From positions 1 to 64,000 of the forward strand of contig JAHHGR010000009.1 in the NCBI GenBank assembly GCA_019359725.1: a DNA stretch of 64,000 nucleotides. The letters run 5' to 3'. The DNA comes from Aphanocapsa lilacina HA4352-LM1 (GTDB lineage Bacteria; Cyanobacteriota; Cyanobacteriia; Gloeobacterales; Gloeobacteraceae). Below, piece after piece: positions 31,059-34,374 of this stretch. The notes beneath the pieces are model-generated. The model was not told where the DNA came from. It saw nothing but the letters and a program-made list of their open reading frames with translations, and did no database searches. Numbering within the stretch: position 1 is the stretch's first letter; every line of letters starts with the position of its first letter. A program made the position numbers and the translations under genes.

Positions 31059-31295
31059 CTAGAAAGGACCGTTGGGAACGATGACGGCGACGATCAGAAA
31101 AGCGGGCAGCCCGCTAGCGCCCAGGAGACTGGCAATTCGACCTTCGTCGCGGCTTTCGAGCGCTTCACGCGTCGCTGCATCAAGGCCTGTTTCCTCTAAT
31201 ATCGTCCGACGCTGTTCAGGATCTTGCCGAAAGCGCTGCGCCAGGAAAGGATCCTGTGTAAGCCGGATAAGAAATGACTTGGCTTTGTGGTTCAT
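31059..31295 (-). CDS. Candidate split-borosin precursor peptide (leader + hydrophobic core)
   Basis: 78 aa; leader SFLIRLTQDPFLAQRFRQDPEQRRTILEETGLDAATREALESRDEGRIASLL, C-terminal GASGLPAFLIVAVIVPNGPF; 51 bp after the methyltransferase. Confidence 0.8.
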   Translation of the reverse strand: MNHKAKSFLIRLTQDPFLAQRFRQDPEQRRTILEETGLDAATREALESRDEGRIASLLGASGLPAFLIVAVIVPNGPF

Positions 31296-31346
31296 AGGTG
31301 GCTACTCACTGTTTAGCTACATCATTACATTGGAGGGACGGTTCCT

Positions 31347-32150
31347 TCAGGCTCCGGTTCCGTGAAACGTCTTAATTTTGAACTTTGCCAGCACTTGCTC
31401 GTCGATTGCCTGCGAGAAAAGCGGAGGAATGTATAACGTCGAAACGGCATTAATGCGGGCTGTAGGTAGGCCCGCTAGAGGTACGCGCTCGACGACGGGA
31501 TCACACAGGGCAAAGTGTGCCGCTTGGTAGACAACCACTTCGTGTTCGGGTGGATAGAATGCCGACAACGCCTCCACAAGCATTGGCATATAGCGCAGAT
31601 CGTAGCCGCTGCCCTGGTAATCGCCGTGACCCACACAACCGATTTGCCACAGCACCACGCCACAGGTCGGGTCAAGGCGACGGCGGCGCAAAAGAAAATC
31701 GGAAGCCTCCAGCATCTGGCACCCTGCAGTGGCGGGGTCTACCCCGAGATCCGCGAATAAACAATCGGCTGCCGAAATCCCTGCAAGCATCTCGGCTGGG
31801 TAGCCCTCTGCGCGGGCTTGGCGGATCGATTCGTGGGAGGGATAGGCAAAAATGCCAGGATGCCCGTAGAAGACTGCAGCCACCTGAAGGTCGGTCCGCA
31901 CCAGTTCAAGGATGCGCTCGACCATCTGAGTGTAAGTCTGCATCCTGGGCTTATCATTTGCGTAAAAGCGGTGCAGGTCCTCAGCAGGGAGTTTACCAGC
32001 TTCTTCGCGAAGCTCGTCGACGAACGAACGACTGAGCGGCTCGGCGATGCAGTAGGCAACAGCGCCTGCAGTCCGAATGGCGGCAATGGCCTCCTGGGAA
32101 AGGTGCCCGGCTCGAATACCTGTGCCTACAACCAAAAGCGAACCCGACAT
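31347..32150 (-). CDS. Borosin-type peptide alpha-N-methyltransferase (tetrapyrrole methylase fold)
   Basis: LLVVGTGIRAGHLSQEAI, FYANDKPRMQTYTQMVERIL, YGHPGIFAYPSHESIRQARAEGYPAEMLAGISAADCLFADLGVDPATAGCQMLEAS. Confidence 0.85.
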   Translation of the reverse strand: MSGSLLVVGTGIRAGHLSQEAIAAIRTAGAVAYCIAEPLSRSFVDELREEAGKLPAEDLHRFYANDKPRMQTYTQMVERILELVRTDLQVAAVFYGHPGIFAYPSHESIRQARAEGYPAEMLAGISAADCLFADLGVDPATAGCQMLEASDFLLRRRRLDPTCGVVLWQIGCVGHGDYQGSGYDLRYMPMLVEALSAFYPPEHEVVVYQAAHFALCDPVVERVPLAGLPTARINAVSTLYIPPLFSQAIDEQVLAKFKIKTFHGTGA

Positions 32151-32180
32151 TTTGACTCCTAAGCAACGGTTAGAGGTGTG

Positions 32181-32229
32181 GTATGGCGATTTAACGGTAT
32201 GCTGCTTTTGTAGAAAATTTCTACCATAC
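32181..32229. promoter_or_regulatory. Inverted repeats in divergent promoter region
   Basis: GTAGAAA-A-TTTCTAC at 32210-32224; outer GTATGG (32181-32186)/CCATAC (32224-32229). Confidence 0.4.
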
Positions 32230-32256
32230 TAAACTTCTATTTTTGGGTTCGAAGCT

Positions 32257-34374
32257 TTGCTGCCCGTAGAATTCGTGGAAAAAATAACGTCACTGGTGCG
32301 CTCAGCCCTAGGCGTATCCGTTGTTCAAATTTGTCTCACCGGTTACCAGGACTTTACTGTTGATCCCTGGTTCAGAAGTCAGGCACCCCTTGGGACAACT
32401 GGCTCGCTGTGCGACGCTGACCTTGATGCCTGTTTCAGCCACTCGCCGTGGCGCTTTGTGGCGGCGGCTCCCATTTTCTCTAACAGTGCGCTGGCGGGTA
32501 ATCTCTGGATCGCCGATAGGCAGCCGCGCTCCCTCGATAGAGCCCATAGTTTGCTCCTGGAACACGCCGCCTCGCTGGTGAGCGAGCGCCTGGAGGCAGA
32601 GGAGCGTTTTGATGAAAGCCAACAGCGCAACTTGATGTACGAAAAGTATATTGATATGGCGCCAGATCAAATTGGGCTTCTAGACCCCGAACTGCGTTCG
32701 ATCATGGTCAATGCAGCCACTTCTCGCTTTTCTGGGCTGCCTAAGGAATGGGTATTGGGCAAAAATCTTTGGGAGATGGGCATACCTGAATCGATCCTTG
32801 CTCAGATGTCCGATTGGGAGCAAATGGTCCGTAAGGTGTTCGAGACGGGAGAGCCAGGCAGCACCAGTTATGCGCATACTGCGGGTGCTGAAGGCTATAT
32901 GCTTTACTGCTACAGTCTGGCGGTGCCCCAGTTCAACTGTCGAGGCGAGGTAGTGGCCGTGCTGAACATCACCTACGATCGCGCCGCCCTCGAGATGCCC
33001 TTCAAACTGGAGGACTGGGCGGGCATGGGGGAGCAGTTGATGCGCGAGGTGGCGGCCCACCGGGTTACCCAGGAGGAACTCGCCAGGTTGAATGCTGAAC
33101 TGGAGGAGCGCGTCAGGGAAAGGACCGTTCGCTACAAGTTGCTCAACCAGAAACTGCGGGCGGAAATTGGCGAGCGGCAGCGCATCGAAGTCGAGTTGCA
33201 GGCGGCCCAGGCGCGGGCGGAGGCCGCCGCCAGGGCCAAAAGCGACTTTCTTGCCGCCGCAAGCCATGAGTTGCGCACGCCGATGCATGGGATCATCAGC
33301 ATGACCGATCTGCTGCTGGAAAGCGAGCTGAGCGCTGAACAGCGGGAACTGACCGCCATCATCAGTTACTGCGGCGAGACGATGCTGAGTTTGATCAACA
33401 ACATTCTTGATTTTTCGAAAATCGAGGCGGGACGCATGGAACTCGACGTTGTGCCCTTCGAGTTGCCCCGGTTGATCGACTCGGTGGTGGCCATGTTTGC
33501 CGAGCAGCTGCGCGGCAAAGAGCTGCAATTGCAGGTGCTCATCGACTCCAGAGTACCGGGGCAACTCGAAGGCGATCCGGTGCGCTTGGCGCAGGTGCTG
33601 ACTAACCTGGTGGGCAACTCTCTGAAATTTACCTCTCGCGGCCAGATAGCTATCCGGGTGCATCCAGTGGCGGAGCAAGAAAACGAGATGCGTCTGCGCT
33701 TTGAAGTCGTCGACACCGGGATCGGCATGAGCGCCGAGACGACCAGCCGCCTGTTCCAGTCGTTTTTTCAAGCCGACACTTCCACCACCCGCAAGTACGG
33801 CGGCACGGGGCTGGGACTTGCCATCTCCAGGCAACTTGTCGAGTTGATGGGTGGGCAGATCGGCGTCGAGAGCCGCCTGGAGGAAGGTTCGACGTTCTGG
33901 TTCGTGTTGCCGCTTAAAGTTTCAGCCCCGGCCGAACCACCGCCGCCGAGCGCACCCGTGGTGGTGCGTCTGCCCCAGTACGGGCCGATTTTGATCGTCG
34001 AAGATAACACCGTCAATCAGAAGGTATTGCTGCGGCACCTGGAGCGGCTCGGCTGCGAGGCGGCGGTGGCGGAGACCGGGGCGGAGGCCCTCACGGTGCT
34101 GGCGAGCCGCTCCTTCACACTGGTGTTGATGGATTGCCAGATGCCGGTCATGGACGGCTTCCAGGCTACCGCCGAGATCCGCAGGCGCGAAGACCCGGCC
34201 CGGCGCACGCCCATCGTGGGCATCACCGCCAACGCCAGCGCCGGGGTCTACGAGCTGTGTCTGGCGGCGGGCATGGACGACTGTTTAATTAAACCGGTGC
34301 GCCGCGAGCAGTTGACCGCCGCCATCGAGCGCTGGGCGCTGCCGGTGGGCACCACTGAGCGGGCCACCGGCTGA
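32257..34374 (+). CDS. Hybrid histidine kinase (GAF/PAS-HisKA-HATPase-REC)
   Basis: [49 protein letters not shown]-terminal receiver [15 protein letters not shown]-like. Confidence 0.93.

Follow-up and report, generated by a model that had tools for sequence, protein, structure and literature searches.

Two adjacent open reading frames on the minus strand of Aphanocapsa lilacina HA4352-LM1 very probably form a split borosin RiPP cassette, in which the enzyme and its precursor are separate proteins. They lie within the window, i.e. the whole 64,000 nt stretch of DNA analyzed here. This reading follows from the homology of both the enzyme and the precursor to borosin proteins, the conserved order of the two genes and the purifying selection acting on them. 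The initial annotation called the pair an uncharacterized split borosin system. Both homologies bear this out, with the qualification that split borosins have already been described and are widespread in bacteria as types IV to X (PMC11395268; PMC11285071), those with a precursor consisting of a borosin-binding domain (BBD) and core being class 3 (PMC11395268). Among the papers covered, which do not include the 2022 surveys by Imani et al. and by Cho et al., none names both borosin and Gloeobacter. As far as this literature shows, the pair adds to the known split borosins.

Ribosomal peptides are rarely N-methylated on the backbone, and the modification is useful; only a few split borosin pairs have been characterized to our knowledge. 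The present pair is compact and conserved and occurs in species of the deepest cyanobacterial order. Its enzyme seems to stand closer than SonM to the fused, fungal-type enzymes, and the pair is therefore a good test of the relation between split and fused borosins.

The gene pair and the adjoining histidine kinase

The predicted borosin-type peptide backbone N-methyltransferase (267 aa) is encoded at positions 31347..32150, minus strand, and is assigned from PDB, Pfam and AF2 comparisons. The predicted precursor (78 aa), with an N-terminal borosin-binding domain and a C-terminal core, is encoded at 31059..31295, minus strand, and is assigned from profile matches. Both open reading frames start with ATG. 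The intergenic region between them (31296..31346, minus strand) is 51 bp long. In the window the two open reading frames share one frame, with one TGA and two TAG codons between them; in congeners the gap measures 53 bp and the frame is not shared. The order of enzyme, binding domain and core is that of the fused borosins, split here only by the in-frame stops and the 51 bp. The strand, coordinates, spacing and peptides given in the initial annotation were all confirmed.

The two open reading frames are not chance occurrences because orthologs adjoin each other in two further genomes of the genus, probably G. violaceus PCC 7421 and G. morelensis (enzyme 82–83%, small protein 79–81%), and again in a MAG of the same family (enzyme 58%, small protein ~45%). 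In this MAG, Gloeobacterales cyanobacterium ES-bin-313, the enzyme is situated at a contig end and a second contig carries the 3′ end of the enzyme followed by the precursor. The name of this genome fits the earlier description of the host as a deep-branching cyanobacterium. The order of the pair is kept in four Gloeobacterales lineages, and neither enzyme nor precursor was found in a third congener. Substitutions between the window and a congener are mostly synonymous, with dS ~1.0–1.2 and dN ~0.11–0.12 for the enzyme and dS ~0.7 and dN ~0.10–0.13 for the small protein. Both genes are under purifying selection.

On the 5′ side of the enzyme, a divergent intergenic region (32151..32256) includes AGGAG preceding the enzyme start. 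Beyond it is a divergent hybrid histidine kinase (GAF-PAS-HisKA-HATPase-REC; 32257..34374, plus strand), a candidate regulator recognized by Pfam and by neighbor conservation. The kinase adjoins the pair in 4/4 of the Gloeobacterales that have the pair, and nothing in the congener without the pair matches its N-terminal part. Its gene is the most likely candidate for a regulator. Kinases are also found within ~550 bp of the borosin enzyme in Ignavibacteria, Acidobacteria and SonM-like gammaproteobacterial loci. Adjacency of kinase and borosin genes across phyla, counted without a background rate, is only suggestive of an association.

Pfam assigns the checked neighbors, none of them a cobalamin or siroheme gene, to a Rieske oxygenase, a polyketide-cyclase-like protein, AhpC/TSA, rpiA, histidine kinase, CorA and topoisomerase. 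The genome's other eight TP-methylase matches are on other contigs, and the earlier statement that no cobalamin or siroheme genes are nearby agrees with this. The rpiA gene is 22 bp 3′ of the 78 aa open reading frame. It was considered as an operon partner of the pair and rejected as a member of the system, as it is on another contig in the same-family MAG and is still present in the congener without the pair. A PHROGs search gave nothing useful.

No protease or exporter dedicated to the pair was found among the genes adjoining it, nor is there one downstream of the MAG precursor, where a convergent aspartyl-tRNA-synthetase-like gene (identified by eye from the sequence) is present. An alternative for the fate of the product is that the methylated protein is neither cut nor exported, and acts in the cell as a signaling partner of the neighboring kinase. 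The position of the kinase next to the pair in each of the four Gloeobacterales, its absence along with the pair in one congener, the kinases near borosin enzymes in the other phyla, and the lack of a nearby protease or exporter would all fit; kinases are common genes, however, and most borosin loci are without one, a kinase or receiver being present in the fetched flanks of 14/88. Signaling by the methylated protein is conceivable but rather unlikely. For the split borosin cassette itself, the co-inherited kinase is a handle on the role of bacterial borosins.

The methyltransferase and its place among split and fused enzymes

The enzyme is a homolog of borosin methyltransferases as judged by sequence comparison. 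In a phmmer search of the PDB it matches dbOphMA (E-value = 1.9e-62), OphMA (~1e-59), SonM (7.7e-50) and MroMA (~2e-44), and borosin methyltransferases are its only matches at E <0.1; no tetrapyrrole methylase of known structure was matched. The aa sequence identity is 43% to dbOphM and 41% to SonM. The AF2 model of the enzyme, compared with known structures, gives OphA at 7e-32 and SonM at 1.5e-26 (TM 0.88 on SonM, rmsd 2.4), and the enzyme part of a read-through model described below has pLDDT mostly >85.

Four residues were compared in an alignment of 75 methyltransferases. Y63 (codon at 31962..31964, minus strand) corresponds to SonM Y58 and OphMA Y66, R69 (31944..31946, minus strand) to SonM R67 and OphMA R72, Y73 (31932..31934, minus strand) to SonM Y71 and OphMA Y76, and Y95 (31866..31868, minus strand) to SonM Y93 and OphMA Y98. 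R69 and Y73 are each conserved in 74/75 rows. Thus the equivalents of SonM Y58, R67, Y71 and Y93 are all present in the enzyme. In SonM, Y58 is an active-site residue with a described role, R67A leaves trace activity only, Y71F lowers efficiency about 100-fold and Y93 touches the cofactor (PMC8429565). The Y-x5-R-x3-Y spacing noted at first is found at Y63, R69 and Y73. The OphMA residues Y66, R72 and Y76 named at first are correct, as PDB titles name the OphA mutants Y66F, R72A, Y76F and Y98A and the four residues align with Y63, R69, Y73 and Y95 of the window enzyme.

A reading of the enzyme as an ordinary methylase of tetrapyrroles (cobalamin or siroheme), with the 78 aa open reading frame as an unrelated neighbor, is already contradicted by these comparisons and is highly improbable. 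The Pfam TP_methylase match (8e-18) and NCBIfam matches to cobI_cbiL and YabN, which are weak and all far under cut-off, would agree with it, but no solved tetrapyrrole methylase matches whereas an OphMA-type enzyme does at 1e-62, R69, Y73 and Y95 are conserved, and the neighboring protein has a borosin-binding domain. In addition, a tree that includes the other TP-methylases of this genome separates them from the borosin set (support 98/99, branch of 4.1 changes per column) and places the enzyme together with OphMA and SonM, as had been anticipated.

In the 75-row tree, the Gloeobacterales enzymes group with 18 others, nearly all of which are fused MT-BBD proteins including the fungal OphM (support 100/94). 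The same grouping has support 94/92 when the outgroup is in the tree. The Gloeobacterales enzymes are the only members on the fused side of the tree with a demonstrated separate precursor. The Gloeobacterales enzyme is likely a split relative of the fused borosins, and only likely because the AU test does not reject placement with other cyanobacterial enzymes (p = 0.199) or among C-terminal fusions (p = 0.447). A further proposal is that the cassette is a split form basal to the fused (fungal-type) borosins, representing either a pre-fusion state or a later fission, with a product tied to the co-inherited kinase; this is tentative, and on balance doubtful. The initial annotation mentions neither the conserved kinase nor the relation of the enzyme to the fused ones.

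The probable precursor, its binding domain and its core

The 78 aa protein carries a borosin-binding domain that profile comparison indicates is homologous to SonA. The domain comprises residues ~1–60 (31116..31295, minus strand) and is a predicted helical bundle based on AF2 helices and the profile match. When the single sequence is searched against the PDB, SonA appears at E = 0.75, which is not significant, and it is only the profile search that settles the relation to SonA. An iterated search covered ~6,900 open reading frames of the fetched loci together with SonA, which was kept outside the profile. Starting from the four Gloeobacterales orthologs, the held-out SonA was retrieved at 0.0063, then 2.9e-7, then ~1e-13 over rounds. 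Profile A3, built on 31 aligned precursors that are separate proteins, places SonA chains on top in the PDB (2e-14) and also matches OphMA segment 321–375 at 1e-4. In the organism's own genome the binding-domain profile gives the 78 aa open reading frame at 1.5e-21 and the next match at 0.08, with no other convincing match. A binding domain is present inside the enzyme or nearby at 76/94 methyltransferase loci, some of which overlap.

Helices are predicted by AF2 at residues 3–14, 16–24, 26–36, 40–48 and 51–58. Structural comparison of the precursor model alone with Foldseek gives E >1, although SonA or OphA chains constitute 8/10 of the top matches. The read-through model, in which TGA and TAG are decoded so that enzyme, linker and precursor form one chain, is a prediction device, with no sign that read-through occurs in the cell. 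Its alignment excluded distant precursors, which were misplaced when added. The model has pLDDT 86 and pTM 0.83, and again displays the five helices. Enzyme and helical domain are confident; linker and core are low-confidence, and the core shows no secondary structure. The separate precursor with a helical leader proposed at first is thus seen as a SonA-like binding domain followed by a C-terminal core.

The 78 aa protein may also be read as a Nif11-like leader precursor for another RiPP enzyme, on the basis of matches to Pfam Nif11 (0.0045) and TIGR03798 (0.0019), but this can hardly be credited: the scores are under the curated cut-offs (17.7 vs 23.8 bits in Pfam, 18.4 vs 32.3 in NCBIfam), the precursor profile retrieves SonA and no Nif11 leaders from the PDB, and relatives of the protein adjoin borosin methyltransferases.

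The core region, residues 61–78 (SGLPAFLIVAVIVPNGPF; 31062..31115, minus strand), is delimited by the ortholog alignment and by low model confidence. Identical residues are found at 14/18 of its positions across three Gloeobacter species, and all three share the C-terminal end IVPNGPF. Residues L67 (31095..31097, minus strand) and V69 (31089..31091, minus strand) face Leu63 and Ile65 of SonA in an ungapped stretch of the HMMER alignment to 7lts_B; Leu63 and Ile65 are the SonA methylation sites (PMC11285071).

By homology with the known systems, the enzyme would methylate the backbone of its small partner protein. The helical N-terminal domain of the precursor would dock on the SAM-dependent methyltransferase, and the C-terminal core of the docked precursor (LPAFLIVAVIVPNGPF) would be threaded into the active site. 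Residues Y63, R69 and Y73 may then position the target amide, with SAM methylating nitrogens of the backbone; alignment with SonA points to L67 and V69, or positions close to them, as the most likely sites. Release and use of the product are presumed later steps.

Comparison with known systems

SonM and SonA of Shewanella oneidensis (type IV, PMC8429565) resemble the window pair in having a separate enzyme and precursor, the latter with a borosin-binding domain followed by a short C-terminal core. However, SonM is in a separate clade of the tree from the window enzyme, which groups with the fused enzymes, the window core sequence differs from that of SonA, and the divergent histidine kinase is a feature of the window. 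The SonM-SonA complex is 2:2. The fused fungal OphMA and dbOphMA are the nearest solved enzymes and share the Tyr/Arg/Tyr spacing, but in the window the enzyme and precursor are separate and there is no nearby cyclizing peptidase.

Loci of Microcoleus, Moorena, Symploca and others (L026–L050), a second cyanobacterial borosin-type group, also combine a methyltransferase, 44–48% related, with a binding-domain protein. Unlike the window, the precursor in these is 1–3 kb downstream, past TPR proteins in the loci examined, and has an acidic/proline tail (DPDPLPDPDP). Their enzymes form a separate clade of the tree, and the first catalytic Tyr is replaced by Asn in 11 enzymes of the alignment.

Several other loci were observed among those fetched. 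Histidine kinases directly adjoin borosin methyltransferases of unrelated phyla at L055, L070, L056, L058, L083 and L098. A Methanomassiliicoccus MAG (L049) and a Thermoplasmata MAG (L097) have a borosin-type methyltransferase with an adjoining binding-domain open reading frame, possibly by contamination. Cyanobacterial methyltransferases with a C-terminal extension adjoin TEVTTEV or DVDTDV repeat proteins (L015, L016), which are likely repeat-core borosins. At L081 and L092, myxobacterial/deltaproteobacterial binding-domain precursors directly upstream of the methyltransferase carry many VVYAAG or MVYGAG repeats and are possibly multi-core.
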